From Novosphingobium sp. TH158 (GTDB taxonomy: Bacteria > Pseudomonadota > Alphaproteobacteria > Sphingomonadales > Sphingomonadaceae), in the NCBI RefSeq assembly GCF_002855555.1, contig NZ_PKRT01000001.1, positions 1,392,001 through 1,456,000 of the forward strand: DNA of 64,000 nucleotides. The letters run 5' to 3'. Shown here piece after piece: positions 42,829-60,122 of this stretch (position 1 is the first letter of the stretch; each line of letters starts with the position of its first letter). Made by a program: the position numbers and the translations under genes. The notes under the pieces are model-generated. The model did not search any database. It saw only the letters and a program-made list of their open reading frames with translations, and had not been told where the DNA came from.

Positions 42829-43923
42829 TCAGACCTCCGCCAGCGTATCATCGAAATGGGCCAGCCAAGCGTGCAACCCGCGTAGCGATGTCGGTACGCC
42901 GTGGCCCTGGCCGAACAGTGAGAAGAGCCGCCGCGCCGACACGCCGGATTGGAAACAGCGCGCAAGCCACTTCGCGCCGAGATACTCGGCGATGACCCGG
43001 TGCAGGAGTTGAAAGCGCTGACCACCTTCCGCTTCGACCAGACGCGTGTGGAGCGCTGCGTCGATCGCCTCAGCGTGCGGAAGCGCGGCGATGCTCCCGA
43101 CATGGATGCAGCTATCAGGTATCGTGCCCGCCGGGCCGTTGAACAGACCCGCAAGGTCGCATAGCAATTGGGTGGCGGCGTAGGCACCTGCGGCGAGAAG
43201 CAGTTTCTCGGCCTCGGCATGCGCGTGCGCTGCATCGTGATGGCGCGGGTTTTCTTCCTGCACGAGGAGCTGACACGCGCGTTCAAGCAGCTGCGCGCGA
43301 CTGATCGGCAATGCCTCGTCGCTCGCTGCGACCTCGCCGATTAGCCGCAGCGTCAGTGGATTTTTGTAGATTTCTTCAAGACCACGGTCGGCGAGATGGG
43401 TAAGCGCCCCATCGGCATCTACGGAAGGAAAATTACGTCGAAGAAAATGCGTCGCGTCACCGCGGTCGAATGCCAACAAGTGGAGGAGGATTGCCGGTCG
43501 CCCATAGTCGTCCTCGATCTTGATTCGATCGGCCGCCCCGCGCCAGTCAACCTCGCGGCTCGAAAGGATGAAGCGTGGATAGCCAAGCTTCGAGAGCTGG
43601 GTGAGGATAGCATCAACGCCGCCCCCCACGGTCGCGGACGCGATCTCATCCAGACCGTCGATGACAAGGCATTCGCCGTTGGGGATCAAGTGTTGAGGCT
43701 GAGCATTGCGCACAAAACTTGCCGCGCGGACATAGACGAAGCCAGTCTGTCGCCCGATGGCCTGTGCCAGCACACTCTTGCCTATGCCTGGATCGCCAAG
43801 GATGACGACGGGGCCATCAAGATCAAGGATCGCCGCCTGATCGATGATGACCGACACGCGCGTAGTGGGATCTTCGCGTTCCAGCCTCCGGTCGATTACT
43901 ATACTTGGTTCCACATCCGCCAT
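42829..43923 (-). CDS. NACHT-type P-loop NTPase, N-terminal part (ends at an in-frame stop)
   Basis: A 364-residue product. Walker A is VVILGDPGIGKSVLAQ (43-50) and Walker B CLVIDGLDEIA (86-94), typical of NACHT/STAND NTPases used as intracellular sensors in bacterial defence. A helical winged part follows (~170-364). It ends LHAWLAHFDDTLAEV then TGA, after which the same frame continues VAADPYAVLRYGDAE into the 966-residue gene. Together they would give about 1,346 residues. No good RBS is seen before ATG 43923. It lies 150 bases downstream of the recombinase. Confidence 0.8.
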   Translation of the reverse strand: MADVEPSIVIDRRLEREDPTTRVSVIIDQAAILDLDGPVVILGDPGIGKSVLAQAIGRQTGFVYVRAASFVRNAQPQHLIPNGECLVIDGLDEIASATVGGGVDAILTQLSKLGYPRFILSSREVDWRGAADRIKIEDDYGRPAILLHLLAFDRGDATHFLRRNFPSVDADGALTHLADRGLEEIYKNPLTLRLIGEVAASDEALPISRAQLLERACQLLVQEENPRHHDAAHAHAEAEKLLLAAGAYAATQLLCDLAGLFNGPAGTIPDSCIHVGSIAALPHAEAIDAALHTRLVEAEGGQRFQLLHRVIAEYLGAKWLARCFQSGVSARRLFSLFGQGHGVPTSLRGLHAWLAHFDDTLAEV

Positions 43924-44073
43924 GGATACAAATAAACACTGCTGCTCTTTTCAATCAATGCGCAGATTCTTCAGAAAGGCGCGAAGTCGACGCCCCGTTT
44001 CCGACGGGAGTATCGGCTATCCCAATCTGCGCTACTGAAGGGGGCCTTTCCGGACCGCCCAACAAATCAGCCT

Positions 44074-45753: not shown

Positions 45754-46168
45754 TGCGCCTCAGTCCGAAGAAGCGCGGACCTGACCAGTGAGCACCTGTT
45801 ACCGCGCGGGCAATCTCGCTCAGCGAGCGCCAGGTCTGCCCTTCGTAGAGGAACCCCTCCTCAAGCACCTCGACGCTGATCGTACGGCCGTTCCACTCGC
45901 GGATGAGGCGGGTGCCTTGCGAGAGGACCGGTGCGCGCTGGATTACCGGCGCGGCCCTCTCGCCTGCGGCGATGCGTTCGAGTTCGCGCGACACGACCGC
46001 CGGCAGGCGGCCCAGCCGCTTCTCCTGCAAGTGCTGGGCGAGCAGGCGGCGCAGCAGGCCTGCCGGAAGCGAGGGCACTGCCCCCGCTCCTGCCGCCTGC
46101 CATGCCGCTGGCAGGTCTGGCGCCGGCATCGCCTCGATGGCGGCCAGCTCTTTTGCCAGCCTGCTCAT
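45746..46168 (-). CDS. DUF2924 protein (recombinase partner)
   Basis: A 140-residue protein with the DUF2924 core, including LRRLLAQHLQEKRLGRLP, TRLIREWNGRTISVEVLEEGFLYEGQTWRSLSEIARAVTGAHWSGPRFFGL. Many alphaproteobacteria have it next to serine recombinases, probably as an accessory DNA-binding protein. It overlaps the recombinase start by 8 bases and the DUF3489 stop by ATGA. Confidence 0.88.
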   Translation of the reverse strand: MSRLAKELAAIEAMPAPDLPAAWQAAGAGAVPSLPAGLLRRLLAQHLQEKRLGRLPAVVSRELERIAAGERAAPVIQRAPVLSQGTRLIREWNGRTISVEVLEEGFLYEGQTWRSLSEIARAVTGAHWSGPRFFGLRRNG

Positions 46169-46464
46169 GCGGTCGCCGCCGCGGTCATGCGATAACGAGT
46201 GATGCCGTCGACCTTGTCCCTGGTGATGGCGTGGCCCTTCTTGCGCAAGCCGGTCAGCATCGCGCGGGTGGTGTGGGGCAGCCAGCCGGTTGCCGCGACC
46301 ATCTCATCGATGCTGGCACCTTCCGGTCGACTGAGCAGTGCGATGACTGCATCGCGCTTGCTGGGGATAGCGGGCTGCGCCTCGACCTGGGTCCCTGCAT
46401 CGGCCTGAGGCTCGCGGGCCATGCGGCGGGGGCGTTGAGCCGCGGACGTGTTGGTGTGTTCCAT
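46165..46464 (-). CDS. DUF3489 protein (recombinase partner)
   Basis: A 99-residue protein with the DUF3489 segment KRDAVIALLSRPEGASIDEMVAATGWLPHTTRAMLTGLRKKGHAITRDKVDGITRYRM, a winged-helix-like DNA-binding fold. I chose ATG 46464 (MEHTNTSAAQ); the frame opens further upstream to 46506 but without family similarity. First gene of the recombinase cassette, so its promoter lies in the region above 46464. Confidence 0.85.
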   Translation of the reverse strand: MEHTNTSAAQRPRRMAREPQADAGTQVEAQPAIPSKRDAVIALLSRPEGASIDEMVAATGWLPHTTRAMLTGLRKKGHAITRDKVDGITRYRMTAAATA

Positions 46465-46989
46465 GGGTGGTCTCCGTCGGGAGACAGCACCGGCTGCTCC
46501 CACCACCCAAGGCCCTGCCAGTCGAGCTGGTCAGGGATGCTGCTGCTGATCGGCCCGGCGATTCAGTGACAACAGCAATGCTTGGGTTTGGCTGATGATC
46601 AAGTGAATCGTCAGCTTTGTTGGGCACTCCGGAACGCCGGCTTTGCGATGCAACAACACTTATATCCGCCATTCCGGCCGCGACAACATTCAGCGCGTGA
46701 ACCTGCGATCGACTGATGAAATCAGATATCACGCTGGGCTCGGCGGGGCCTCGCTGAAGACCCGCAACCTCACATGTTCACCCTTTTAGCGATAGGAACC
46801 GGGGTCTCCTGAGCCTACTCGAATTTCGCGGCGCCGGCACCAAGCTAGTTCCAGCCGGCCTTCCGAGGTGAGGACGGCAGCGTCGTCCTCGGGCATCAAT
46901 TGGACAATCGCTCGAGGTTGATTTATTGGCGTCTACCAGCAAACGGGATACGTTTGTTCGGGGCGCGAAAAATACATAAGGTGGACGAT
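46465..46989. other. 525-base region between the recombinase cassette and the lasso precursor
   Basis: No ORF with recognisable content. It should hold the promoter of the recombinase cassette (minus) and of the lasso cluster (plus). CAAACG-GGATA-CGTTTG (46940-46956), a perfect 6-base inverted repeat, lies 34 bases before the precursor ATG. A convincing -35/-10 pair is not seen. Confidence 0.45.
46940..46956. promoter_or_regulatory. Small inverted repeat before the lasso precursor
   Basis: CAAACG and CGTTTG, separated by GGATA, form a perfect hexamer inverted repeat 34 bases before the precursor start. It could be an operator or a leader-RNA hairpin; no regulator gene is in the cluster. Confidence 0.35.
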
Positions 46990-47160
46990 ATGCAAAATTA
47001 CGGCGAAACAGGGCAAGCGCAGAACGAGCAGGCCACTTTCGGGGCGCAAGAGGTTGCCCAGGACTATGTAGCTCCCGAATTGAGTGATCTCGGTTCGCTA
47101 GAGGCGCACACCAATATTGGCAGGCGTTCGTCTGCACCCTTTGATCGGGGATCTTCCTGA
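46990..47160 (+). CDS. Lasso-peptide precursor
   Basis: A 56-residue peptide, start ATG with AAGGTGG 7 bases upstream (a GTG three codons earlier is also in frame). The leader contains YVAPELSDLG (Y26, P29, L31, G35) and T41, matching YxxPxLxxxGxxxxxT, the recognition pattern of lasso leaders bound by B1 proteins. The likely core is GRRSSAPFDRGSS (residues 44-56): Gly1 and Asp9 fit a nine-residue macrolactam ring with a four-residue tail RGSS. With that core the Thr is at -3 rather than the usual -2; starting at Ile43 would require a ring of ten. The C-terminus is Ser-Ser, a possible target of the cluster kinase. The core has no Tyr or Cys. Confidence 0.85.
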   Translation: MQNYGETGQAQNEQATFGAQEVAQDYVAPELSDLGSLEAHTNIGRRSSAPFDRGSS

Positions 47161-47218
47161 AATCTGCATCCTTGGTTCTGCCTGATCAGGTAATTTGGCG
47201 GACTGAGGACATTTCGCC

Positions 47219-48985
47219 GTGACGAGCATCGTTGTGTGGAACAAGTCCTTTCCGGGATTTGAGCCAAGCCATTTCGCAAGTCATCCATTTACTGGTTCAC
47301 TCGGCTGCTGGCACGTAACCTCTTGCGCTGCACCGGTGCTGCTGCCGGGCGAGAATGGCTGGCTGTTCGCTTCCGCTCGCCTTGATAATCGTGCAGACGT
47401 TGCGGCTCGGCTGGAATTTTCCTCCGACCAAGCGCGGGTCCTTACCGATAGCGAACTGCTGAGTGCCGCATATGGCGCATGGGGTGCGCAATGTGGTGAG
47501 CATATGCTGGGCGCGTGGTGCTTCGTCGCGCTCGATGCGCGAACTGGCACTATCACGCTCGGCCGGGATGCCCTAGGTCTCGCGCCGCTCTATTATGCGG
47601 CAAAACGCAATCGCCTGACCTTTGCATCGCGCCTACCCGACCTGCTCTGGCTCGAAGGTGGCGGGCGCAGACTCAACCCGATGGCGCTGGCCCAACTGGG
47701 CTATGGCCACAAGCGCGATACCAGCACGTTCTTTGCTGGCTTGTCCAAGGCCCCCGCGGCGCAGGTGCTATCCGTCGGTGCCGATGGTTCAGTGTTGCGC
47801 CGGGTGCGATACTGGGACCCCGGTGCCGTGCCCAAACTGCGCTACCCGCGTGACGAGGATTATGTGGAGGCGTTTGCCGGCCTCTATGATGAAGTGGTCA
47901 ACAATGCGCTGACTCCGGGTGCGAAGGTGGGTATCGCATTGAGTAGCGGGCTAGATTCCAGCTCGATCGCGGCATTGGCTGCGCCGCGAATGGCGGCATC
48001 TGGCTACCGTCTGCAAGCCTATAGCTGGGCACCGGGTCGCCGGATCAACACTGTGCCACCGCGGGGCCGATTTTGGGACGAGCGACCGCAAGTAGCGCAA
48101 CTGGCTGCACGGATCGGCAATATCGACGTAACCACTGTAGAAGGCAATTCCGGTGGATTGCTGGCGACAATACGCCAGATGCTGAAAACCGTGGAAGAGC
48201 CAAGCAATGCATTGGCCGGCTGGCACTGGTATCATCGAGTGTGGAGCCGCGCTGCCGCCGATGGTATCGGCGTTCTGCTGACCGGCGATTTCGGTAATTA
48301 TACTGTTTCGCTGGATCGCCGCAATCATGCGGTTCCCGGTTGGCGCGATCGCTACCACGCATTCCGGCACCGATTGCGAAACCGGCACCTGGGGCGCCAT
48401 ACTCATGCCCGGATGCTGGTCCGCCCCGACTTCGTCGAGCGCATGCTGGCCGATTGCCCGCCGCAGGATCCCGCGCTGACCGCACGTTGGCGCAAAGCCT
48501 CGCATCCATTGCGTTCGTTCTACAACATCCTGCAATCCGGTGGCGCATCGTTGCAATGCGAATTGGGCGAGGCGATGCAGCTCGAAATGCGCATGCCCGC
48601 GATCGATCGGCGTATGGTTGATTTTTGCTGTGGTGTTCCGTCCGAGCAACATGCTCGGCATGGACAGACGAAATTGCTGATGCGTCGCGCGTTTGTGGGG
48701 CGCTTGCCCGACACGCTGCTGTGGAACCGGCAACGTGGATTGTCTGGAGGCGACGTGGTGCAAGCGCTGGCCGCCGAGAAGGAGGAGGTTTTCGCGTTGC
48801 TGGACGCTGCTGCACGTTGTCCGCTCACACGTGAAGCGCTCGATCTGCCGTGGCTGCAGGCCCGGGCCGCACGGCTCGGATTGGATGGGTCGCAGTCACT
48901 CGATGTGATGGATGCCGGACTGCTGATGCGCGGGCTGACCTATATGATGTTCCTGCAAGGCTTCGACGACGTGGCTGCGAAATGA
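47219..48985 (+). CDS. Lasso-peptide cyclase (asparagine-synthetase homologue, LasC/McjC type)
   Basis: A 588-residue asparagine-synthetase-like protein that adenylates the Asp/Glu side chain and closes the macrolactam. The N-terminal glutaminase-like region is present but begins MTSIVVWN, without the catalytic Cys2, as in lasso cyclases. The synthetase domain has the PP-loop IALSSGLDSSSIAAL (~239-253), and a LLTGDFGNY motif. Start GTG 47219 has GAGGA upstream. It follows the precursor by 58 bases and overlaps the first sulfotransferase by ATGA. Confidence 0.9.
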   Translation: MTSIVVWNKSFPGFEPSHFASHPFTGSLGCWHVTSCAAPVLLPGENGWLFASARLDNRADVAARLEFSSDQARVLTDSELLSAAYGAWGAQCGEHMLGAWCFVALDARTGTITLGRDALGLAPLYYAAKRNRLTFASRLPDLLWLEGGGRRLNPMALAQLGYGHKRDTSTFFAGLSKAPAAQVLSVGADGSVLRRVRYWDPGAVPKLRYPRDEDYVEAFAGLYDEVVNNALTPGAKVGIALSSGLDSSSIAALAAPRMAASGYRLQAYSWAPGRRINTVPPRGRFWDERPQVAQLAARIGNIDVTTVEGNSGGLLATIRQMLKTVEEPSNALAGWHWYHRVWSRAAADGIGVLLTGDFGNYTVSLDRRNHAVPGWRDRYHAFRHRLRNRHLGRHTHARMLVRPDFVERMLADCPPQDPALTARWRKASHPLRSFYNILQSGGASLQCELGEAMQLEMRMPAIDRRMVDFCCGVPSEQHARHGQTKLLMRRAFVGRLPDTLLWNRQRGLSGGDVVQALAAEKEEVFALLDAAARCPLTREALDLPWLQARAARLGLDGSQSLDVMDAGLLMRGLTYMMFLQGFDDVAAK

Positions 48986-49725
48986 CCCGGCTGGATCAAG
49001 CTCCGCCGCTGGTACTTGTGCTCGGCATGCACCGTAGCGGCACTAGTTGCCTGGCGGGAGGGCTGGAGCGCTGCGGGCTGTATCTGGGCGATGTGCGCCG
49101 CACCGGCCACTTCAATCGCAAGGGTTATTTCGAACCGGCCGAACTGGTGCGGCTGCACGACCAGATTCTAGCGCACAATCGCGGGAGCTGGCATCAACCG
49201 CCACCCGAAGTGTCCCTCCATCCCGTGTTGGCTGAGAAACTGGCGGTGCTGATCGATAATTTGACCAGCTCATCAGAAGCGCACGCCGCCTGCGGAATCA
49301 AGGACCCCAGGCTGTTGTTGTTGCTCAAGCCATGGATGGAACTGGCCGGGCCACGTATGCGGCTGGTCGGCACATTCCGGCATCCGCTGGCAGTGGCGGC
49401 CTCCCTGCACCGCCGCAACGGCTTGACAATGGCGCAGGGACTGGAGCTCTGGCGCGAATATAATTCGCGTCTGGTCGAGGCCCACCGGCGCACGCCATTC
49501 CGGTTGATTGCCTACGATCTTGCTGATCCGGGGGCCTATCGGGCTGCGCTGGCCAAGCTTGCCCGTGCGGTCGGCTTGCGCCCGTCGCGCTTTGGTTTGT
49601 GGCGGTTCGTATCTTCTAGATTGGATCACGAAGTGGCCGCGCGCAATGCGCAGGTTCCCCCAGCCTGCGCGGCGCTTTACGACTATCTGTTGCACCATGC
49701 GGGTCCGCAAGAGAGTTCAGCATGA
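48982..49725 (+). CDS. Sulfotransferase-like protein 1
   Basis: A 247-residue PAPS-dependent sulfotransferase-fold protein. The 5'-phosphosulfate loop is LVLGMHRSGTSCLAGGL near the start, with a 3'-phosphate-binding-like VGTFRHPLAVAASL (~125-138). Acceptor is unknown. The frame extends upstream but the first methionine consistent with coupling is at 48982 (ATGA with the cyclase stop). It is one of three sulfotransferase genes in the cluster. The next gene starts inside its stop. Confidence 0.85.
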   Translation: MTRLDQAPPLVLVLGMHRSGTSCLAGGLERCGLYLGDVRRTGHFNRKGYFEPAELVRLHDQILAHNRGSWHQPPPEVSLHPVLAEKLAVLIDNLTSSSEAHAACGIKDPRLLLLLKPWMELAGPRMRLVGTFRHPLAVAASLHRRNGLTMAQGLELWREYNSRLVEAHRRTPFRLIAYDLADPGAYRAALAKLARAVGLRPSRFGLWRFVSSRLDHEVAARNAQVPPACAALYDYLLHHAGPQESSA

Positions 49726-50576
49726 TTCCGGATCGTCTCCGCAAACGTCTCGAGCGGGCAATCGACAACGGCAAGTGGCGCTATCGCATGCTGCCCCGCT
49801 GGCGTCCGGAAGCTGCGCCCGACATACCCATCACCATCCTTGTGCGCAGCTGGAACCGGCCGTTGCACTTGTGGGCATCGCTCGACTCGCTGTGGCGCGA
49901 GTCATCGGCCTCCTGCCGCTTCATCCTGATCGACAATGCGTCGAGTGACCCGCTGACGCACAAGGTCATCGACGCGTTCGAGCGCCGGGGCATGTTTGTC
50001 GCCGTATATCGGATGTCGGAGAACCAGTCGGATAACCAGCAGGTCATCTACGATCGGCACCGGGCCGAATTCGGCCCGTACGTGGTGCTGGCCGATGCGG
50101 ATGTCATCTTATGCCCGAGCTCGGGCGATTGGGTGCGGCGGATGCGCCGCATCATGGCGGCGCGGCCGAGCCTGGCCTTGCTTGGATCGGTGGTGGACCC
50201 TGTAGATTTCGTAACGCTGGAGCAGGCGCGCGCCCTGGAACCAGACTTGCCCGAACCGGTCTTGCGCGAACTGATCAAGGCAAACAGCGCGGAACGACGC
50301 CAGCCCAGGCGCATGCTGGCATCGGTGATCAATCCATATCCCCCGGCGGGACGGCTGCTGATGGCCCGCACCGCCGTGCTGGACCAGACCGGCGCAATCA
50401 TCGGAGCCCGGCGGCTGTGCGAGGCGATCGAAACGACCGGCCATGATGTGGGAATTACGCCGCGGGTGGTGCACCGCCACCTCTCGCTGCTCAATCTGTT
50501 CGATTATCCCGCCTACGACTACGATCAGCTCTATCAATATCTCGGCCATGCCGCACCGGACAGGCAGGCAGGCTAG
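49722..50576 (+). CDS. Glycosyltransferase-like protein 1 (GT-A fold)
   Basis: A 284-residue protein with IPITILVRSWNRPLHLWASLDSLW near residue 35, FILIDNASSDPLTH, and the acidic VVLADADVILCPSSGD (DxD-like). It looks like a GT-A nucleotide-sugar transferase with small size. Donor and acceptor are unknown. Overlaps sulfotransferase 1 by ATGA and is followed after 2 bases by sulfotransferase 2. Confidence 0.72.
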   Translation: MIPDRLRKRLERAIDNGKWRYRMLPRWRPEAAPDIPITILVRSWNRPLHLWASLDSLWRESSASCRFILIDNASSDPLTHKVIDAFERRGMFVAVYRMSENQSDNQQVIYDRHRAEFGPYVVLADADVILCPSSGDWVRRMRRIMAARPSLALLGSVVDPVDFVTLEQARALEPDLPEPVLRELIKANSAERRQPRRMLASVINPYPPAGRLLMARTAVLDQTGAIIGARRLCEAIETTGHDVGITPRVVHRHLSLLNLFDYPAYDYDQLYQYLGHAAPDRQAG

Positions 50577-50578
50577 CC

Positions 50579-51550
50579 ATGCTCCCCAATTTCCTGTGCA
50601 TCGGCGCGCAGAAATGCGGTACGACGACGCTCTGGCACATGCTAGATGCTCATCCTGATATCTGCATGGCGCGCCCGCGCGAAACCCGCTTCTTCAGCGA
50701 GGATGTGCGCCATGCCGAAGGCGTGCCCGCCTATGAGCTCCGGCACTTTGCCCATTGGCGGGGTGAGCGCGCCGTAGGTGAGAAGTGCCCGGAATATCTC
50801 TACCTGCCGCATGTGCCGGAACGAGTCCTGCGGGCGCTGGGCGGCGAGCTGAAATTCCTGATCTGCCTGCGCAGTCCGGCACAGCGGGCCTATGCGCATT
50901 ATCGGCACAATATCGCGCAATTGCGCGAAGCCCGGCCTTTTGCAGATGTGCTGGAGGATGAAGTGGCAACAATCCGCGCCGGCGGCTTCGTGGCACCACC
51001 GTTCGGCTATATCGGCAGGGGCGATTATGCGGCGCAACTGGAGCGTTATTTCGATCTGTTTGGCCGCGAGCGATGCTATGTCATCAACTTCGAGGAGATT
51101 GTGGCCCGTCAAACGGCCGTGGCAGCCGGCGTCTTCCGTTTTCTTGAAGTGGAGCCTCGCGCGCTGCCGCAGCATTTTCATGCCGGCCATGCCTCGTTCG
51201 GCGACATGCGCCTCTGGGTTGACAATCTGCAAGGCGCTCCGCGTGTGCATTTGTTGCAAGGTACGAGTGCGGTGACCAGCGGCGGCTTGCGGGGACTCTG
51301 GCGCGCATTGAGCGGGCATGGCGCGGTTCCCGGCGCGCCCGTGCAAGTGCGCGCGCCATCTCCGGAGCTGCAAGCGTTCGCGGGCAACTTTGCAGCGTTG
51401 CGTGAGCTCCCCAGACGGCTGTCGCAGGACGATGAGTTGCGCATTAACCAATGCTATTTTTCCGAAGCGATAGAGCGATCAGCGGCCCTGCTCGGCACTG
51501 GCTTCGCGCGTTGGCTAGAGGCGGGCGAAGCGTGGGTGGATCGTCCATGA
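50579..51550 (+). CDS. Sulfotransferase-like protein 2
   Basis: A 323-residue sulfotransferase. The PAPS loop is FLCIGAQKCGTTTLWHML and the 3'-phosphate-binding segment is KFLICLRSPAQRAYAHYRHN. Also RETRFFSEDVRHAEG. It resembles heparan-sulfate-type sulfotransferases more than aryl ones, so a hydroxyl or sugar acceptor is plausible. Its stop overlaps the next start (ATGA). Confidence 0.88.
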   Translation: MLPNFLCIGAQKCGTTTLWHMLDAHPDICMARPRETRFFSEDVRHAEGVPAYELRHFAHWRGERAVGEKCPEYLYLPHVPERVLRALGGELKFLICLRSPAQRAYAHYRHNIAQLREARPFADVLEDEVATIRAGGFVAPPFGYIGRGDYAAQLERYFDLFGRERCYVINFEEIVARQTAVAAGVFRFLEVEPRALPQHFHAGHASFGDMRLWVDNLQGAPRVHLLQGTSAVTSGGLRGLWRALSGHGAVPGAPVQVRAPSPELQAFAGNFAALRELPRRLSQDDELRINQCYFSEAIERSAALLGTGFARWLEAGEAWVDRP

Positions 51551-52536
51551 CCGGTCCGTGGACTTTCAACATCATCTACACGCCGGGCACGGTGGCCTAT
51601 TTGGCGCCGTTGGTGCATTCGCTACTGCACCACTCGGATGCCTGCTTCCGCCTGGTCGATAATGGGTGCATGCCGCCCGAGCGCGACTTGTTGGCGGCGC
51701 TGGCTGAGGCTTCGCCGCGATTAGCATTCCACGAGCTCGGCGCTTCACGTTGCCTGCCCCATGGCGAAGTGCTCGACGCCCTACGGTTGCTGCCAGTCAC
51801 CGGTCCGTTCGCATTTATGGATTCCGATATCGTGGCTTCAGGCCCGTTCATGGCGTCGCTGCATGCGGGGTTCGAGGGATCTTCAGCGGTGTTTTCCGGG
51901 CCGCCGGTGTGGCTGGGAGAACGTGATGGCGTTTTTCGGAAGGGCTATCGCCGGCTTGATGGCGAATATCTGTGGCGGCCTACGGGTGAATGCCTAGGCT
52001 GCACGTATGTTGCGGCCTACCGGCCGGACGCGCTGGCCGGGACGATTTCCCGCCATGGCGCGGGATTTGCCGAAGCAGCATGGCTGGACCTTCCTCAGGA
52101 AACCCGGCAGGTACTGGTTGGGCGCAGGCTAGAGGCCGGACATTTCGACACTGGCAAACTGGTCAACGCGCTGCTGCCGGGCACGCTGACGATGGCCCGT
52201 ACGCCGACGCTGCACCATATCGGCGGCTTCAGCTTCGTGGCAGGGACACAGCCGAATAGTGGCAGCAAAATGCCGGGCCTGCTCCGAGCGTTGCTGGGCG
52301 CATGGCGCTATCGCCACGGCCGCAGTCAGCGCGAGGCCGTGGAGACGGCCCGCCGCCGGATCGATCGCCGCGATCGGGTGCGGCGTTATTTCGTTGAATT
52401 CCTGCGCGCGCAGGCCTGCGGAGCGCCCGAGCCGACACCGCCTCCGAACTTGCCCGCCGACATCGCCACGCGCCTTCACGAGGCTGCCGATGCGCTTCGT
52501 GCCAACCATATTCTGGCGCAGGAACTGCGCCCATGA
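51547..52536 (+). CDS. Glycosyltransferase-like protein 2
   Basis: A 329-residue protein beginning MTGPWTFNIIYTPGTVAYLAPLVHSLL, with FRLVDNGCMPPERDL and GPFAFMDSDIVASGPF (DSD, DxD-like). This pattern fits GT-A transferases that act on donor sugar nucleotides. Other parts are not recognised. I chose 51547 because it overlaps the upstream stop by ATGA; the frame opens earlier. Followed by the kinase gene with an ATGA overlap. Confidence 0.68.
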   Translation: MTGPWTFNIIYTPGTVAYLAPLVHSLLHHSDACFRLVDNGCMPPERDLLAALAEASPRLAFHELGASRCLPHGEVLDALRLLPVTGPFAFMDSDIVASGPFMASLHAGFEGSSAVFSGPPVWLGERDGVFRKGYRRLDGEYLWRPTGECLGCTYVAAYRPDALAGTISRHGAGFAEAAWLDLPQETRQVLVGRRLEAGHFDTGKLVNALLPGTLTMARTPTLHHIGGFSFVAGTQPNSGSKMPGLLRALLGAWRYRHGRSQREAVETARRRIDRRDRVRRYFVEFLRAQACGAPEPTPPPNLPADIATRLHEAADALRANHILAQELRP

Positions 52537-53519
52537 CGCCACTCAGCCGCCATATCGCTTATGGCCTGCAGATCGCCTCGGAGATTTCATGGCCATTGCT
52601 GGCGCCGGGCGCGGAAGGCCCGGCCGATGTCATTGTGAAGGTGGGGCGGGGGCCACGACCCAATCGTGCAAACTTCTGCGCACCCGTCTATCGCAGCCCC
52701 GGCCATAACGCCGCTGGCATGCCGTATCTAGACGTAGCCATGGCTGACGCGGAGGGAGGTTCACCATGGCTCATCAGACACCATGGAGAAGCCGGATCGA
52801 TAGATTTCCTGCTCGATGCCGGCAACTCGATTACAGTATGGCGCGATACTCAGGTGGCGCCCTGTGATCTTGCCGCCTATTTCACCGGTCCGGTTTTGGG
52901 CCATCTGCTGCGCATGCGGGGGCAGGTTGCGCTGCACGGCGGATTTGTCTCGCATCGCGGCCAGGGGGTGGGCGTATTGGCAGGCAAGGGCGGTGGCAAA
53001 TCCACGCTGGTGGCAGCTCTCGCCAAGACCGGCGTGGCGGTGCTGGCTGACGACGTCGGCGCGTTGGCCCGCGATGGGCATGGCGGATGGCAGGTGGCAT
53101 CGGGCTATCCATGCCTGCGCGTCTGGGACGATACGCAGGCTGCAGTTGGCTTTCAGCCCGACGAGCTCGCTGGCCCAGTCGTCACTTTCGAAGCCAAGCA
53201 CTATGTTGCGTTGGACGAAGCACCACTGCGTTTCGAGGCGAACTCCCGACCGTTGCGGGCGTTGGTCGTGCTTGGCGAGCGCCAGCACCGCGAGGATGCA
53301 GTGATCAAGCGACTGGCGCCGGGGCCGGCGATTGCCGCGTTACTGGCCAATGTCTATGCGCCGCGGGCGGGCGGCATCGCCATGCGCGGGCGGGATCTGG
53401 CCTGTGCGGGGGAATTGAGCCAGTCGATCACGATCTGCAAGGTCTCGCTGCCTGAGGGGATTGGCTGGTTGCGACAGCATGCCGCTCGGCTGCTCGACAG
53501 GGTGCTGGGTCATGGCTGA
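52533..53519 (+). CDS. HPr-kinase-like serine kinase (lasso tailoring kinase)
   Basis: A 328-residue HprK-related protein. Walker A is GVLAGKGGGKSTLVAAL (151-158), with LHGGFVS containing H135 and VLADDVGAL (D173, D174) as in HPr kinases. Relatives in the paeninodin cluster phosphorylate the C-terminal Ser of the precursor. The precursor here ends in Ser-Ser, so phosphorylation of Ser56 or Ser55 is a testable prediction. It overlaps the nucleotidyltransferase start by 8 bases. Confidence 0.85.
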   Translation: MTPLSRHIAYGLQIASEISWPLLAPGAEGPADVIVKVGRGPRPNRANFCAPVYRSPGHNAAGMPYLDVAMADAEGGSPWLIRHHGEAGSIDFLLDAGNSITVWRDTQVAPCDLAAYFTGPVLGHLLRMRGQVALHGGFVSHRGQGVGVLAGKGGGKSTLVAALAKTGVAVLADDVGALARDGHGGWQVASGYPCLRVWDDTQAAVGFQPDELAGPVVTFEAKHYVALDEAPLRFEANSRPLRALVVLGERQHREDAVIKRLAPGPAIAALLANVYAPRAGGIAMRGRDLACAGELSQSITICKVSLPEGIGWLRQHAARLLDRVLGHG

Positions 53520-54789
53520 GACCAACGGCTGCGCCCACCCCGAACGCGCCGGGGAAGTCGTGCTGGCACTGATGTCGCCAGTAGCGCCGCTGATGCAGGC
53601 AGATATCGATGTGCTGGAAGAGGCCGACTGGGGTGAGATCGCGCGCCTGGTCAATGCGCATCGCCTGCAACCGCTGCTCCACTGGTCGCTGGAAAGCTAC
53701 CGGCCAGCACTGGTTCTGCCGGAAGCCGTGGTCCGCGACTGGATGATGGTGCGGCGGCAGCAGGCCATGCGGGCGCTGGCGATCAAAAGCCTGCTGGGGC
53801 GCATCGCCAGCCTGTTCGACACAGCGGAACTGCCTTGGCGAGCACTCAAAGGTGCATATCTCGCCTTTCACACTTACGATGCGCCGGAACTGCGACCGAT
53901 GCGCGATCTCGACCTCCTCGTGCCCGAATCGCGGGTCGGTGAGGCATTTGCAATGCTCCTGGCCAATGGAGGCAGTCGTTTGGCCAACATCGCTGGTGAG
54001 CCCGAGGCATTTCTGGCGACCAATCGCAAGCACATGCCGCCGATCCTGTTCGCCAAGGCCGACATTTGTGTTGAACTGCACACCCATCTGCTTGCGCCCG
54101 CGCAGGCAACGCCAGGGCTGGCGAGCGAGGCGGTACTGGCCTGCGCGCCCCTTCGCGAGGCCAGCGATCCGATCCCTTATATCGATCGCGAGCGGCTCGT
54201 GCTGCATCTAATCATCCACGCAGTCTATGAGCACAAGTTCGACAATGGGCCACTGGCCTTCACCGATATCGCCAGCGTCGTCGGTAGCCAGCCATTCGAT
54301 TGGGCGCGATTCTGGCGGATGTGTCGCGAAGGAGAGCATGAGCGCGGCGCCGTGCTCGCGCTCCGGATTGCCGAATATATCTGCGGGCAGCCCCTAATCG
54401 ATCGGACTCTGGACGACGCCCCAGATCGCGTCGCCCTTCCCGACGTTCCAGATTCATGGATCGTCCGGCTACTGCCCGCGCTGACCCGGACCCAGGAAGA
54501 TCGCGTGGAATATGCGTTGTCCAACCAGATCAGCGGCGGGAACGGGAGTGCATCGGCCGCGCGCATGCTCAATGGCCGCCTGTTCCGCAGCCGCCAGGAA
54601 CTGATCTCGGAATTCGGCGAGGACGGATCGCGCTATGTCGTGCTGTGCGCTCGACTGTGGAGCCGGCTGTTGCTCAGCAGATTGCCCAGCATCTGGCGCT
54701 TCATTCGCCGCAGCAACCACGCCCCCCGGACGGTACGGATGCGCGAAATCGATGCCTGGCTGGCCGGCGGTGCGAGCGAGCCGTCGTGA
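53512..54789 (+). CDS. NTP_transf_5-type nucleotidyltransferase
   Basis: A 425-residue protein of the PF14907-type family. The catalytic region WRALKGAYLAFHTYDAPELRPMRDLDLLVPES has the GAY motif and D132/D134. In lasso clusters such nucleotidyltransferases accompany the HPr-like kinase and are thought to elaborate the phosphoserine. ATG 53512 overlaps the kinase stop. The C-terminal ~200 residues are mostly helical and not further recognised. Confidence 0.8.
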   Translation: MAETNGCAHPERAGEVVLALMSPVAPLMQADIDVLEEADWGEIARLVNAHRLQPLLHWSLESYRPALVLPEAVVRDWMMVRRQQAMRALAIKSLLGRIASLFDTAELPWRALKGAYLAFHTYDAPELRPMRDLDLLVPESRVGEAFAMLLANGGSRLANIAGEPEAFLATNRKHMPPILFAKADICVELHTHLLAPAQATPGLASEAVLACAPLREASDPIPYIDRERLVLHLIIHAVYEHKFDNGPLAFTDIASVVGSQPFDWARFWRMCREGEHERGAVLALRIAEYICGQPLIDRTLDDAPDRVALPDVPDSWIVRLLPALTRTQEDRVEYALSNQISGGNGSASAARMLNGRLFRSRQELISEFGEDGSRYVVLCARLWSRLLLSRLPSIWRFIRRSNHAPRTVRMREIDAWLAGGASEPS

Positions 54790-55739
54790 CCGCCCGGCCG
54801 CCATTTCGGGCTCGGCTCGATGCGTCCGAAGTCGCCGCGGTCCGCCGCTGGCCACCGGCTTCGGGAACGGGGCAGGTCCCTTTGATCTCGGTGATCATCC
54901 CCTGCTTCCGCGTCACGCGGACCATCGCCGGCGCGCTCGACAGCATCGAGACACAGCGCCTGCCGAGTGACGTCGCCATCGAAGTCATTCTCGTTGTCGA
55001 TGGATTGAAGGCAGATGCCGATGCCATTGCCGGCCTGTTCGATGCTCGCGCTACGCCGTATCGGTTTGCTGCAACGCTGGCGATACTGCGGCGAAACCTG
55101 GGGGCGGGCATGGCCCGATCGCATGGTTGGGCGCTGTGTTCGGGCGAACTGGTGGCGATGCTTGACGACGATGATGTATGGTATCCTGACAAGCTGGCTC
55201 TGCAATTGGCCCTGCACCGAAGCTATCCCGAGCAGATCGCGAGCGGGCACCAGTATGGCAGCCGGCCTCCTGGCTTGGCGGGGATCTTGCCCCGCATCAT
55301 GCATGCGGGCAGGCCGCAGCCGGTGTCGTTGCGACAGTTGTTGTGGCGCCCGCGCTTCATCCCCACCACGGTGATGATCCGGCGGGCGGCATGGCCGCGG
55401 GGGCCGGAGCGTTTCCGGAACGGTGAAGACATGCTGATGAATTTCATGATCGCGGCGCACCAGCCGATGCTGGGGCTGGCGATCGATCTGGCTGGTCGAT
55501 CGCCGCATGCGCCACCCGCCCACGCCGACCGGGACAGCCTGTCGCGCCGCCGATTGCGATCCCGACTGAGCCAGATGCGCAATTACGTCCTGCTCGTCTG
55601 GCGCGGCCAGCTCAATCCGTTGGTGCTCCCACCCCTGCTGGTCTGGAGCATAGCTCTCGGGCTGCGGCGCTATCTGCTGGATGGGGCCGAGTTTATCGGA
55701 CGAATCCTTGCCCGAAACTGGGCACGGCCGGATGCTTGA
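54786..55739 (+). CDS. Family 2 glycosyltransferase (cluster GT 3)
   Basis: A 317-residue GT2 protein. The GT-A core is ISVIIPCFRVTRTIAGALDSIETQ, NLGAGMARSHGWALCSGELVAMLDDDDVWYPDKL (DDDD with W). A C-terminal hydrophobic segment (LVLPPLLVWSIALGL) suggests membrane contact. Starts at GTG 54786, overlapping the nucleotidyltransferase stop. It is the clearest of the three glycosyltransferases. Confidence 0.88.
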   Translation: MTARPPFRARLDASEVAAVRRWPPASGTGQVPLISVIIPCFRVTRTIAGALDSIETQRLPSDVAIEVILVVDGLKADADAIAGLFDARATPYRFAATLAILRRNLGAGMARSHGWALCSGELVAMLDDDDVWYPDKLALQLALHRSYPEQIASGHQYGSRPPGLAGILPRIMHAGRPQPVSLRQLLWRPRFIPTTVMIRRAAWPRGPERFRNGEDMLMNFMIAAHQPMLGLAIDLAGRSPHAPPAHADRDSLSRRRLRSRLSQMRNYVLLVWRGQLNPLVLPPLLVWSIALGLRRYLLDGAEFIGRILARNWARPDA

Positions 55740-55774
55740 CTCGCTTGGGGGTGGGACCTAACCGAGGTCTGATC

Positions 55775-56074
55775 ATGACCTTGCCTCTCCAGTGCCGTCC
55801 AAACCCCATGGTCCTTGCCACGATCGTCAAGAATGAGACGATACTGCTAGACACCGCGCGCGAGCATTATTTCAGCCTGAATGCAGTGGGGGGGCGGTTC
55901 TGGTCGCTGATTGCCATGGATGGATCCTCCGAGCGGGCGGTGGCCTGCATCGCGCAGGAATTCTGCGCGGATGAAGCGGTGGTGCGCGCCGATCTGGTGC
56001 GCTTGTGGGACCAACTGTGCGCCAACGGCCTGGCCAGCGCGGCTTGCGAAGACGGTCGCGAAGACGCGCGATGA
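55775..56074 (+). CDS. PqqD-like lasso leader-binding protein (B1)
   Basis: A 99-residue PqqD-family RiPP-recognition element. It has TILLDTAREHYFSLNAVGGRFWSLI followed by a helical half (SSERAVACIAQEFCADEAVVRADLVRLWDQLCANGLAS). It should bind the YxxP leader and present it to the B2 peptidase. ATG 55775 has CGAGG 8 bases upstream; a TTG at 55736 is also open. Its stop overlaps sulfotransferase 3 (ATGA). Confidence 0.85.
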   Translation: MTLPLQCRPNPMVLATIVKNETILLDTAREHYFSLNAVGGRFWSLIAMDGSSERAVACIAQEFCADEAVVRADLVRLWDQLCANGLASAACEDGREDAR

Positions 56075-56949
56075 TCGCGAAGCCGTCTGCCTTTCCCGAC
56101 AGTGTTCGCGGCCTGGCGCTGCGGCTGCTGGGCATCGGCACGGCACCACGGAATTTCGTGGTATTCATTGGCAATCCGCGATCCGGCACGACCTTGGTGC
56201 GCAGCCTGCTCAATGCCCACCCGAATGTGGTGATCGCCAACGAGTTCAATATTCTTGCCGCATTCCAGCAAGGGGAGCGTGACTGGCGCCGGGTACTGGG
56301 CGGAATACGCCGCCATGCCGCTTGGTTCGATGCCAAGCCGGTCTGGCAGGGGTATGACTATCGCATAAATGCAAGGCGCAAAACGCCTGCCAGCGCGATC
56401 CGGGTGATCGGTGACAAGAAGGCGGGGCGCACCACTTTGCTGTTCGCCCGGCATCCCGAGCTGCTCGAGGCGTTTCTGGCATGGTGCCCGGTCCCGGTGA
56501 AATTTATCCACTGCGTACGCCATCCGCTCGACGTGATCGCCACCAAGACCGCGCGCAACGCGATGACGCTCGATGAGAACATCGACCTCTATTTCCAGCG
56601 CGAGGCGGAGACCGCGCAGATTTGCGAGCGAGTAGGGCCGGACGCTTGTCACAGCGTGTATCTGGAGGAACTGATTGCGCAGCCCCGGCGAACGCTGGCC
56701 GAGCTCGCGCGGTTTCTGGGAATCGTGGCCGATGGGCGCTATGCGGAAAGCTGCGCCGGGCTGATTTTTGCAGATGCGCGGCAGACCCGCGAGGGCCTAT
56801 CCTGGTCGCCTGACCAGCTTGACCGGATCGCTCGGGATAGCGCGGCCATCCAGGCGCTGGCGGGTTATGCGATGCCCGTGCCGGCTGGCATCGAAGCATC
56901 GAGCCAGGTCGACGCCAGCGAGCCCGGACGCGGGCGGGAGGTCTTGTGA
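56071..56949 (+). CDS. Sulfotransferase-like protein 3
   Basis: A 292-residue sulfotransferase with FVVFIGNPRSGTTLVRSLLNAHPNVVIANEF near residue 30, and the 3'-phosphate segment VKFIHCVRHPLDVIATKTARNAM. Acceptor unknown. ATG 56071 overlaps the B1 stop; its stop overlaps the radical SAM gene. Third sulfotransferase of the cluster. Confidence 0.85.
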   Translation: MIAKPSAFPDSVRGLALRLLGIGTAPRNFVVFIGNPRSGTTLVRSLLNAHPNVVIANEFNILAAFQQGERDWRRVLGGIRRHAAWFDAKPVWQGYDYRINARRKTPASAIRVIGDKKAGRTTLLFARHPELLEAFLAWCPVPVKFIHCVRHPLDVIATKTARNAMTLDENIDLYFQREAETAQICERVGPDACHSVYLEELIAQPRRTLAELARFLGIVADGRYAESCAGLIFADARQTREGLSWSPDQLDRIARDSAAIQALAGYAMPVPAGIEASSQVDASEPGRGREVL

Positions 56950-57788
56950 TGACGATGCCCATCCCGCTGTTCAAGCGGCTGCTTGTGGAATTGCAGTCAA
57001 ACTGCAATCGCAACTGCTTTTTCTGCAATCGTGAATTCGACACCTCGGGCAAACGGTATGACGCCGATCGCCGCAAGGTCATCCGGCGCATGCCGACCGA
57101 ACAGGCGATCTCGATCCTCAACCAGGCGCAAGCCATGGGCTTCTCCGGAAATGTAGCCTTTCACCACTATAGCGAGCCGTTTCTGGACGATCGCATCATC
57201 GACATGGCTCATGCCGCGCGGGAACGGGGCATGGTGCCCTATGAGCACACCAACGGTGACGTGCTGCGGCAGGACAAGGCACTGAGCCGGGCCGCAGCCG
57301 AAGTGTTCGATCACATCGTAGTTGGCCTCTATGACTACAAGTCGGAGGACGAACTGCGCGAGGAGATGGCATTCTGGGAAGATCGCCTGGCCGGGACGCG
57401 GTTGCGGTTCAGCCTCGGCGGGGATGTGTTTCCCCGGGTGATGACCCCGCATGACACGCGCATGTTCCGGGAAAAGCAGACGTACCCGGGCGCGCCCTGC
57501 CTTCGACCGCTGATGCGTTTGATCGTGCATTACGATGGCATGGTGCCGCTCTGTTGCGAAGACATGGAAACCCGCTTCGACCTCGGCAACGCCTTTTCCA
57601 CGGGCATCGCCGATCTGTGGTTTTCCGATCGCCATGTCGAGATCGTCAAGGCGCTGAAAAAGGGGGAGCGCCACCGTTTTGCCTTGTGCGCGCAATGCCC
57701 GATCCCGCCTGTCTCATCGCCGACACTGCTGTCCCGTCTGCGCGGTCGGGTCAAGGCGGCACTGCCTGCGTTTGTGGTGCGGCACTGA
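56946..57788 (+). CDS. Radical SAM protein with C-terminal auxiliary-cluster cysteines
   Basis: A 280-residue protein. The radical SAM motif CNRNCFFC (C20, C24, C27; CX3CX2C) binds the 4Fe-4S cluster that cleaves SAM. The C-terminal part has C185, C203/C204 (PLCCED), and C248xxC251 (LCAQCPIPP), which fits a SPASM/Twitch-like auxiliary cluster. Such enzymes often modify RiPP side chains. The target is unknown; the core has no Cys, so a thioether is unlikely. Overlaps its neighbours. Confidence 0.88.
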   Translation: MMTMPIPLFKRLLVELQSNCNRNCFFCNREFDTSGKRYDADRRKVIRRMPTEQAISILNQAQAMGFSGNVAFHHYSEPFLDDRIIDMAHAARERGMVPYEHTNGDVLRQDKALSRAAAEVFDHIVVGLYDYKSEDELREEMAFWEDRLAGTRLRFSLGGDVFPRVMTPHDTRMFREKQTYPGAPCLRPLMRLIVHYDGMVPLCCEDMETRFDLGNAFSTGIADLWFSDRHVEIVKALKKGERHRFALCAQCPIPPVSSPTLLSRLRGRVKAALPAFVVRH

Positions 57789-57789
57789 C

Positions 57790-58239
57790 ATGCGGGGCAA
57801 CTTGCCCGCCTTGCTGCGCGCGCCGGGGCGGACGGTGCTGCGCACAGGCCAGCTGGCGCTGATCCTTGGCGTGCATGCTGCCATACATCGGTTCGGACTT
57901 GCGGCGGTGCGCGGTCTGCTGGAAAAGTTCCATCCCTTGGCACCCGCGCTCACGACCGAGCGCGAGGCTGAGATCGTGCGAGGACTTGCCTTACATTGGC
58001 GCTGGGTGAGGCAGCGCGCACCTTCTCGGTTTCGTGGCAACTGCCTGTCCCAATCGGTCACCTTGTGGTGGCTGTTGCGCTTGCGGGGAATCGATACGAA
58101 ACTGTGCATCGGCATTGATCGGCGGTCGGAGCAATTCAGTGCCCATGCCTGGGTCGAACATCGCGGCCTGGCCCTCAATGCGGGCGCTGCGGTGCGCGAT
58201 AACTTCGCGACTTTCGGCCATGATTTCGCCAAAGGGTAG
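57790..58239 (+). CDS. Lasso leader peptidase (transglutaminase-like B2 protein)
   Basis: A 149-residue Transglut_core3 protein. The catalytic Cys is in FRGNCLSQSVTLWWLLRLRG (C85), the His in FSAHAWVEHRG (H119). The Asp expected ~12 residues after the His in McjB/B2 enzymes is Ala131 here (LALNAGAAV), with Asn130 beside it. It should cut leader from core after binding by B1. ATG 57790 is 1 base after the radical SAM stop. Confidence 0.87.
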   Translation: MRGNLPALLRAPGRTVLRTGQLALILGVHAAIHRFGLAAVRGLLEKFHPLAPALTTEREAEIVRGLALHWRWVRQRAPSRFRGNCLSQSVTLWWLLRLRGIDTKLCIGIDRRSEQFSAHAWVEHRGLALNAGAAVRDNFATFGHDFAKG

Positions 58240-58263
58240 GCCCTTGCCGCGGCCTAGGGCAAC

Positions 58264-58989
58264 ATGAGCCTGCTGGGGGTCAGTGCCGGCCCAGACGGGG
58301 CGGTGCTGGAAATCGAGGCCGCGTTGGTTGCCGCGCAGGGTCTGCATGCATCCTATCGCCTCGCCGAACCATTCCCGCATGTGGTCATTGATGATTTCCT
58401 CGATGCTACCCTGGCTTATGCCCTGCACGCAGCATTTCCGCAGCGGGAACGAGCCAGCGTAGTGCGCGAGGGGGCTATGCAGAACGGCAAGTTCGGATAC
58501 CGGCCCAAGACCCTGGCGGGACAAGAATCGTTGCGCTTGCTCGAATTGTGCAATTCCGTTCCGATGGCCCGCTTTCTCCAAGCATTAACTGGCCATCGCG
58601 ATCTTCGACCCGATGCCGAAGCGATTGGCGGCGGGTTTCACGAGACAGTGCAAGGCGGGCACCTGTCCATTCATGCCGATTTTAGCAAACACCCCAAGCG
58701 TCGGCTGGCGCGTCGGATCAACCTCCTTGTCTATCTCCAGCCCGATTGGGACGAAACTTGGGGAGGAGAACTTGAATTGTGGCATCCGGATATGCGCGGC
58801 CTTGCCGCGCGCATCATGCCGCGCTTCAACCGGGCCGTGATCTTCGACACTACCGCCACTTCATTTCACGGCCATCCGCAACCGTTGACCTGCCCCACCA
58901 ACCAGTCCCGCAAGTCGCTGGCACTCTATTTCTACAATCATCCAAAGTTTTGCGAGCGCTTGACCACCCACACACTGTGGCGGCCTTGA
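58264..58989 (+). CDS. Fe(II)/2-oxoglutarate-dependent oxygenase
   Basis: A 241-residue prolyl-4-hydroxylase-like oxygenase. The iron ligands are H137 and D139 (LSIHADFSKHP) and H202 (TSFHGHPQPL), with the 2-oxoglutarate Arg in QSRKSLALYFY (R216). Length is normal. In a lasso cluster it may hydroxylate the core, for example Pro7 or Asp9 (canucin has an Asp hydroxylase). It follows B2 by 24 bases and is the last gene of the cluster; the P-type ATPase remnant starts 3 bases later. Confidence 0.85.
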   Translation: MSLLGVSAGPDGAVLEIEAALVAAQGLHASYRLAEPFPHVVIDDFLDATLAYALHAAFPQRERASVVREGAMQNGKFGYRPKTLAGQESLRLLELCNSVPMARFLQALTGHRDLRPDAEAIGGGFHETVQGGHLSIHADFSKHPKRRLARRINLLVYLQPDWDETWGGELELWHPDMRGLAARIMPRFNRAVIFDTTATSFHGHPQPLTCPTNQSRKSLALYFYNHPKFCERLTTHTLWRP

Positions 58990-58991
58990 GG

Positions 58992-59972
58992 TGGCAGGCC
59001 GGAATTTCTGATGACGGGCTAACTAACGATGTGCTGACCGGTGCGGACATGGCGACCATGACCGACGTAGCGCTGCGGCAGAGGCTGGACAGCGTGAGCG
59101 TTTGCGCTCGGATCATGCCTGACCAGAAGCTGCGGCTGGTAGAGGCGTCCAAGGCACAAGGCGGCATCGTGGCGATGACCGGCGACGGGGTGAATGACGC
59201 GCCATCGCTGAAGGCGGCGCATATCGGCATTGCAATGGGCGGACGCGGCACTGACGTCGCGCGCGAGGCGGCTTCGGTTGTGCTGCTCGACGATGATTTC
59301 GGGTCGATCGTGACCGGGGTTCGCATGGGGCGGCGCATCTACGACAATTTGCGCAAGGCGATGGCGTTCATCGTTGCGGTCCATATCCCGGTGGCGGGGA
59401 TTGCACTGTTGCCGCTTGTCACCGGCCTTCCGTTGTTGCTCGGGCCAATTCATATCGCGTTTATCGAAATGATCATCGACCCGGTCTGTTCGCTCGCATT
59501 CGAGGCGGAGACCGAGGAGCGAGATGTGATGACACGACCGCCGCGTGCCCGCACGACGCCGCTGGTTTCGCGCAGCCTTATCGCCTGGTCGGCGCTGCAG
59601 GGGATCTGCGTGCTGTTGATGAGCGCGTTTTGGACCGCCGCGCTTGTGCGCAGCGGAGCGGGTCAGGAGGTGGTGCGCGCAGGCACGTTCATGGCGCTGG
59701 TGCTGGGCATCATAGGCCTGATTTTGGTGAACCGGCGTTTCAGTCCTTCGGTCAGCGCGGCGCTGGCCCGGCCCAATCCGGCGCTGGCATGGGTTCTGGC
59801 CGTGGTCGCGGTCATTGTAGCGGCGACGCAACTGGTGCCGCAAATTGCAGTGCTTTTCCGCTTTGCGCCGGTGGGCTGGCCGGTGATCCTGCTGATCGTG
59901 GGCAGCGCCCTGGCCTTGCTGTTCGGGCTGGAGCGGTTGAAGCGGCTGTGGCGTGGGGGACTGGTGGCCTGA
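58992..59972 (+). pseudogene. P-type cation ATPase, 3' remnant
   Basis: About 327 codons matching the C-terminal half of a P-type ATPase. Similarity begins at about WQAGISDDG (58992) and includes ARIMPDQKLRLVEASKAQG, VAMTGDGVNDAPSLKAAHIGIAMGG and DVAREAASVVLLDDDFGSIVTGVRMGRRIYDNLRKAM. C-terminal membrane segments follow (PVAGIALLPLVTGLPLLLG, IEMIIDPVCS). The N-terminal transmembrane part and the phosphorylation DKTGT are absent and the upstream DNA is the lasso cluster. It is a truncated gene; the junction lies just after the oxygenase stop. Confidence 0.85.
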
Positions 59973-60122
59973 AACGGTCAGAACGGAGTTTGTCCTGGCG
60001 CAACGGCGGCCCATTGAACCAGCCCAGCACAAAACCATCGCTGCACTGCAATATAAACGACCCCAACCTGCAACATCGGCCTCCTAATTGCGCGGCACTT
60101 CGAGTCCGCAGGGGAATTCATT

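Follow-up and report, generated by a model that had tools for sequence, protein, structure and literature searches.

Lasso peptide gene clusters that encode a kinase besides the core biosynthesis proteins are known from paeninodin (PadeK) and from the syan cluster of Sphingobium yanoikuyae (SyanK) (PMC8498205, PMC9266682, PMC10368454), and in the pseudomycoidin cluster (PsmK, PsmN) and the bsf cluster of Bradymonas sediminis (BsfK, bsfN) the kinase is accompanied by a nucleotidyltransferase. In kinase clusters, phosphorylation was described at the C-terminal Ser of the precursor (PMC8498205, PMC9266682), and BsfK phosphorylates Ser3 inside the ring (PMC10368454). In pseudomycoidin, one or two hexoses are placed on the phosphate of phosphoserine through PsmN, although it is doubted whether PsmN itself performs the transfer (PMC8498205, PMC9266682). 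Here, a 14-gene cluster located on the plus strand at positions 46990-58989 of a 64,000-nucleotide stretch of Novosphingobium sp. TH158 DNA (contig NZ_PKRT01000001.1, positions 1,392,001 to 1,456,000; in the following, the window) was analysed. Judged by its genes and motifs, the product of the cluster is probably a short lasso-type peptide, predicted to bear a sulfated glycan linked through phosphate to its C-terminal Ser, and it is likely far more decorated than the products of related clusters.

The cluster shares with the paeninodin and syan clusters separate B1 and B2 proteins, an AsnB-like cyclase C, an HPr-like kinase and a precursor ending in Ser. In the cited parts of these papers, however, no more than a kinase, a putative nucleotidyltransferase and, in some Firmicute clusters, one putative sulfotransferase are named for clusters of that type, whereas the present cluster has ten extra genes and no exporter. 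With pseudomycoidin and bsf it has in common a kinase, a nucleotidyltransferase and a lasso core; the same parts name no set of sulfotransferase (ST), glycosyltransferase (GT), radical SAM (rSAM) and 2-oxoglutarate (2OG) oxygenase genes for these two systems, and bsf has an ABC transporter gene, unlike our cluster. The kinase K is likened to PadeK and SyanK by description and motif, and the nucleotidyltransferase N to PsmN by description.

Kinase, nucleotidyltransferase and sulfotransferase genes of lasso clusters are in print (PMC8498205, PMC4289311, PMC10368454); the kinase and sulfotransferase of some clusters were noted in 2014 (PMC4289311) and again in PMC8498205. PMC13352647 mentions lasso peptides glycosylated on Ser and lasso peptides that bear more than one modification. 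A further set is found among the open reading frames (ORFs) 1738-1748 of Pontixanthobacter/Allopontixanthobacter (PMC10040529 Table 2; 1745 absent): a B2, a nucleotidyltransferase, an ABC transporter, two sulfotransferases, an Asp beta-hydroxylase, a hypothetical protein, a PqqD, an asparagine synthase and a glycosyltransferase. It differs from our cluster in its ABC transporter and in that the table names no kinase or rSAM protein. With adjacency taken from the numbering, this set is read here as a smaller cousin and a probable multi-tailored lasso cluster; it stands there in a list of halotolerance-associated genes, and some of the ORFs are discussed as such (PMC10040529). In the literature surveyed, no description of the present gene set was found. 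A preliminary description of the locus, made from the sequence, had proposed a phospho-, glyco- and sulfo-modified lasso peptide and possibly a new class. The modified lasso peptide remains the best inference and the rich tailoring set is supported. The new class was rejected, as clusters with kinase, nucleotidyltransferase and sulfotransferase genes are in print and a sulfotransferase stands beside C and K in five loci of the same family. The gene set is a new, extreme form of a known kind of lasso cluster.

Gene content and layout of the cluster

The genes are arranged in the order A-C-ST1-GT1-ST2-X-K-N-GT3-B1-ST3-rSAM-B2-2OG, i.e. the precursor A, the cyclase C, B1 and B2 plus ten others, and all 14 frames are open with the sought motifs present. 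Number, order and common strand of the genes had been described correctly in the preliminary description, which also gave the junctions as mostly ATGA. Nine of the 13 junctions do overlap, by 4 bp in eight cases and by 8 bp in the ninth, but some have GTGA or TTGA instead of ATGA, and the remaining four are gaps of 1, 2, 24 and 58 bp. The cluster is probably one transcript. Promoter-like sites (2 versus 3.6 in shuffled sequences) and terminator-like sites (5 versus 10.8) were fewer than in the shuffles, repeats were short and scattered, and a tRNA was the sole match of the Rfam scan. The Pfam cut-offs were exceeded by C, N, GT3, B1, ST2, ST3, rSAM, B2 and 2OG.

The cyclase C (47219-48985) is a lasso-type, AsnB-like protein with an SSGLDSS motif and no Cys2 (PF00733, Asn_synthase, 2.1e-27); among NCBIfam profiles it matches the lasso cyclase NF033535 best, with 210 bits, which is under the cut-off of 525. 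The PqqD-like leader-binding protein B1 (55736-56074; the true start may lie further in) matched PF05402 (PqqD, 5.4e-13) above the Pfam cut-off and NF033530 with 39.7 bits, under the cut-off of 70. The leader peptidase B2 (57790-58239, the start being approximate) carries GNCLSQS and HAWV and matched NF033537 with 67 bits (cut-off 33). By family matches, the cluster has the B1, B2 and AsnB-like C that characterise lasso clusters. Together with the YxxPxL leader with its Thr, these core features had been named beforehand and are present by motifs and family matches.

Among the tailoring genes, three encode sulfotransferases with the motifs RSGTS, KCGTT or RSGTT plus RHP or an RSP-type motif. 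ST1 (48982-49725; RSGTS, RHP) matched PF13469 (Sulfotransfer_3) at E 0.01, below the cut-off; ST2 (50579-51550) matched PF13469 at 1.5e-9 and PF00685 (Sulfotransfer_1) at 4.4e-9; ST3 (56071-56949) matched PF13469 at 7.7e-20 and, weakly (0.0012), the profile NodProtNoeE, NoeE being what we take to be a Nod-factor sugar sulfotransferase. DxD motifs occur in three proteins. GT3 (54786-55739; DDDD) is a family-2 glycosyltransferase (PF00535, Glycos_transf_2, 5.4e-15), GT1 (49722-50576; DAD) is glycosyltransferase-like (PF00535 4.8e-4, 20.6 bits versus a cut-off of 23.3), and X (51547-52536; DSD) is a possible glycosyltransferase without a family, for which a single-sequence structure model reached a mean pLDDT of 44 and a pTM of 0.25. 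Hence, the three glycosyltransferase-like proteins of the preliminary description comprise one secure, one weak and one unassigned case, while its kinase, nucleotidyltransferase, three sulfotransferases, rSAM protein and 2OG oxygenase were all recovered, K and ST1 below cut-offs.

The HPr-kinase-like K (52533-53519; LHG, GGGKST, ADD) matched TIGR04352 (HprK_rel_A) at 4.3e-5, with 22.7 bits versus a cut-off of 200. Its LHG at 134, its ADD at 172 and the P-loop AGKGGGKST, read by eye, supply the His-Lys-Asp-Asp motif given for HPr-like kinases of lasso clusters in PMC9266682. N (53512-54789) belongs to a nucleotidyltransferase family (PF14907, NTP_transf_5, 1.7e-41; RDLDLL by eye) and provides the gene of this family that is characteristic of pseudomycoidin-type clusters; the regular expressions for the K P-loop and the N motif had no match as written. 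The radical SAM/SPASM protein rSAM (56946-57788; CNRNCFFC) matched PF13186 (SPASM, 1.4e-9) and PF04055 (radical SAM, 6e-7), and the 2OG-Fe(II) oxygenase (58264-58989; HAD, FHG, RKS) matched PF13640 (2OG-FeII_Oxy_3, 4e-19). Apart from the kinase motif, the functional meaning of the motifs is assumed here from general family knowledge.

The precursor peptide

The precursor A (46990-47160) has 56 aa, and AAGGTGG lies just upstream of its ATG. Its match to NF033521 (13.2 bits) is under the cut-off of 19. The leader, which ends in YVAPELSDLGSLEAHTN, has Y(-17), P(-14), L(-12) and T(-2), and this spacing matches the published rule for lasso leaders, YxxPxL at -17 to -12 and Thr at -2 (PMC10368454). 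The cut is therefore placed between Asn(-1) and Ile1, giving a predicted core IGRRSSAPFDRGSS of 14 residues (Ile1-Ser14) in place of the 13 residues proposed earlier.

When the precursor was searched against a database, P0199 was the single match, with 84% identity across all 56 residues; the longest contig for it measures 2,300 bp. Of the homologous precursor next to a cyclase that the preliminary description had asked for in related genomes, the precursor protein itself thus exists. In the P0199 core IGTRSAATFDRGSS, positions 1, 2, 4, 5, 7 and 9-14 are kept and positions 3, 6 and 8 vary, which makes Pro8 unlikely as an essential target. Asp10 and the C-terminal Ser-Ser are retained, the conserved hydroxyls being those of Ser5, Ser13 and Ser14. 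The final Ser, which is a feature of phosphorylated lasso clusters, is present in both precursors.

Precursors of the kinase loci L061-L063 share the frame, e.g. YETPELTEVGSFEAVTQ ahead of a core beginning GGADGTVLD. These three similar lasso precursors (L061:11710, L062:8533, L063:11988), which end in TPVSDLTFS, come from loci with C and K in genus g32, and those of L062 and L063 have an identical core.

Proposed biosynthesis

In the proposed pathway, B1 would bind the YxxPxL leader and K would phosphorylate the C-terminal Ser, as in clusters of like kind; since BsfK acts on the ring residue Ser3, Ser5 is an alternative phosphorylation site here. By analogy to pseudomycoidin, N would then add a hexose to the phosphate, GT1, GT3 and perhaps X could extend the glycan, and ST1-ST3 may sulfate the sugar or Ser hydroxyls. 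With glycosyltransferases and three sulfotransferases present in addition to K and N, the model that needs the fewest assumptions is a glycan attached via the phosphate on Ser14, extended and sulfated. The 2OG oxygenase and rSAM might oxidise core residues or a sugar, the least certain step. B2 would cleave between Asn(-1) and Ile1, and C would join the N-terminus to the sole acidic core residue.

Occurrence and linkage of the genes in other genomes

Among 7994 candidates scored, 78 proteins including the cyclase itself were cyclase relatives at E <=0.001. Six others reached at least 43% identity (best 53%), and these include proteins of Sphingopyxis sp. BSNA05 and of a Sphingomonas metagenome-assembled genome (MAG). 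In the MAG protein P0008, encoded on an 86,192-bp contig, a frameshift leads from the cyclase frame into a homolog of ST1 with 64% identity across 174 aa. The contig of the rSAM relative P0082 (68%) has the same size of 86,192 bp and the same organism label, and the cyclase P0007 (35%) and the rSAM protein P0105 (59%) are both on contigs of 10,924 bp. Jittering of the 74 + 119 sizes gave 0.26 chance coincidences overall and 0.02 above 10 kb. From the C-ST1 order in P0008 and the equal contig sizes for rSAM, it is very likely that C, ST1 and rSAM go together elsewhere. At least part of the gene set thus forms a unit, and the linkage evidence covers these three genes.

Relatives of rSAM at ~57-61% identity are labelled Bacteroidetes, Desulfamplus, Omnitrophota and Caldilineaceae, which suggests that the family has been widely transferred and that its substrate is conserved. 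No rSAM relatives were present in the plasmid and phage collections, and no relatives of X in the plasmid collection. IMG/VR contained 68 rSAM loci, the best (48%) on the phage-like contig L074 (L074:9998-10777), with no lasso genes among its listed ORFs, and no cyclase relatives. The 254 plasmid records matching the cyclase were all below 60% identity, the best 20 of 254 at 23.6-30.4%, and a single-sequence scan of genome_contigs with six motifs of the source cyclase yielded 8 distant loci at 26-33%.

The rarity counts come from overlapping genome samples, most of which cover part of a larger group. The cyclase was found at E 1e-40 in one of 195 congeneric genomes, the source genome itself, and in two of 298 family genomes, i.e. 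the source genome and one at 33%. With a seven-row cyclase profile (E 1e-50), 27 of 397 family genomes were positive, source included. In one other genus, two of 295 genomes had the cyclase at E 1e-90, in three loci that combine C with K and, in one case, also B1; K was matched by tblastn in all three. The source genome was the only one with rSAM, both among 398 genomes of the phylum (E 1e-40) and among 346 of the order (E 1e-30).

A further comparison covered 31 loci surrounding a cyclase of the AsnB-like or lasso type; 21 came from family genomes, 8 from genome_contigs and 2 from the source genome. By tblastn (E 1e-3), K was matched in 25 of them, including 17 of the 21 from family genomes, N in 8 and GT3 in 1. 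A Pfam check of 10 proteins picked by eye identified sulfotransferases too diverged for tblastn to ST1-3; in L055, L057, L058 and L064 they stand beside C and K. In the same check, L050 had a weak sulfotransferase together with a JmjC protein, L067 a GT8 protein and L056 a GT2 protein. The same-family kinase-sulfotransferase loci (G087, G251, G213, G155; L055, L057, L058, L064) resemble our cluster in having C, K and a Sulfotransfer_1 protein close by, with B2 found by tblastn in L055 and L057 and by eye in L058. They differ in their single diverged sulfotransferase, in having no tblastn match to ST1-3, rSAM or 2OG, and, for L055, L057 and L058, in a transporter-like ORF seen by eye. In G545, a Sulfotransfer_3 match lies 3 kb from the cyclase, among the matches listed. 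In the family loci inspected, the extra enzymes number roughly one to three, drawn from K, N, one sulfotransferase and one glycosyltransferase; none of these loci has ten. The present cluster is a rare, greatly expanded variant of the kinase-bearing lasso clusters that are common in the family.

That no inspected family locus holds such a set would also be expected if the cluster were an ordinary C-terminally phosphorylated lasso cluster whose co-transcribed sugar and sulfate genes act elsewhere, e.g. on a surface polysaccharide, and the source genome has at least 12 Sulfotransfer_3 matches among the matches listed. However, B1 and B2 lie in between the ST, GT and rSAM genes, most of the junctions overlapping by 4 bp, a MAG again has the C-ST1 order and rSAM, and one sulfotransferase stands beside C and K in G087, G251, G213, G155 and G545. 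Such a division of targets is accordingly regarded as unlikely.

Evaluation of the proposed product

A number of observations weigh against the decorated lasso-type peptide. K, GT1 and ST1 are under family cut-offs and were assigned by motifs and relatives, X matched no Pfam or NCBIfam family and had no meaningful PDB match, and no exporter gene is present among the 14 genes. None of the 31 cyclase loci gave a tblastn match to ST1-3, GT1, X, rSAM or 2OG, and the three loci of the other genus had no tblastn match (E 0.01) to the cluster genes other than C, K and B1. Since the rSAM relatives at 57-61% identity are labelled as distant phyla, the rSAM target may be a sugar or something else. As the core is without Tyr, sulfation must go to Ser or to a sugar. 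The ring acid, predicted by leader spacing at residue 10, would fall outside the reported range of 7-9, and just Arg-Gly-Ser-Ser follows it whichever cut is used; with only four residues past the ring acid, threading of the product is doubtful.

Lasso rings of 7, 8 and 9 residues and cores of 13-33 are reported in PMC13352647. Asp10 is the single acidic core residue given the cut between Asn and Ile; a cut between Ile and Gly would place Thr at -3 and leave a 13-residue core with Asp9 and a nine-residue ring. Either the ring exceeds all sizes reported in PMC13352647, or the cut sits one residue later. These ring sizes, the short tail and the lone acid at position 10, kept in P0199, are also in line with an unthreaded branched-cyclic macrolactam from Ile1 (or Gly2, with an off-register cut) to Asp10, with the tail outside. 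This product, which overlaps the lasso-type peptide in so far as the latter leaves threading open, is considered possible, albeit clearly the lesser prospect; the best match of the cyclase is a lasso cyclase family, a bulky phospho-glycan could serve as a plug, and a cut one residue on yields the nine-residue ring. More speculatively, a ten-residue ring Ile1-Asp10 might be formed in which a sulfated oligosaccharide via the Ser14 phosphate plugs the four-residue tail and replaces bulky side chains, a rather improbable structure at present.

Genomic surroundings and origin

The left flank of the cluster (42829-46506, minus strand) encodes a DUF3489 protein, a DUF2924 protein, a large serine recombinase and a weakly NACHT/AAA-like protein, and a tRNA-Leu is located at 39199, left of this serine recombinase module. 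The segment 42829-46506 between the tRNA-Leu and the cluster is likely an integrated element. By the NACHT-like gene, an ORF of 966 aa (39883-42783, minus strand) had no Pfam match at E 0.01.

On the right, 59031-59984 contains the 3' last two fifths of a 5'-truncated P-type cation ATPase, which is a longer ORF in the congeners G430 and G331. In the source genome, residues 527-860 are matched here at 63% and elsewhere by weak matches alone. That the cluster splits the ATPase, with the front half on its far side, was considered and rejected, as the source genome has no front beyond weak matches. The truncation points to acquisition of the cluster with loss of the ATPase front. The ATPase remnant is followed by a TonB-dependent receptor (60123-62771), which may predate the cluster, as it has a relative in G326. 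In the tblastx comparison, many short pieces were summed-statistics noise and just the ATPase and receptor matches were counted.

Taken together, the rarity of the cluster, the serine recombinase module and the truncated ATPase make acquisition of the cluster likely. A recent import that has since lost its function would account for the same location and for the presence of the cyclase in the source genome alone among the 195 congeneric genomes, but with 14 of 14 frames open, the sought motifs present and the homologous precursor P0199 84% identical, such a loss appears very improbable.

Implications

The cluster would allow tests of what is transferred by the nucleotidyltransferase-type enzymes of phospho-lasso clusters, a question left open in PMC9266682, and of which role the sulfotransferases of lasso clusters have, called unclear in PMC4289311. 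Moreover, it could be tested whether a decorated tail can stand in for bulky plug residues, and the position of Asp10 would be a direct test of the 7-9 ring rule. Should the ten-residue ring with its glycan plug be true, interlocked peptides would gain a new principle, a mechanical lock built from a glycan, and the product would be the first glyco-sulfo-phospho lariat. If all extra enzymes act on the one 14-residue core, the cluster would be a compact natural system that equips a ribosomal peptide with a sulfated, phosphate-linked glycan, and up to ten tools for peptide engineering would be gained.

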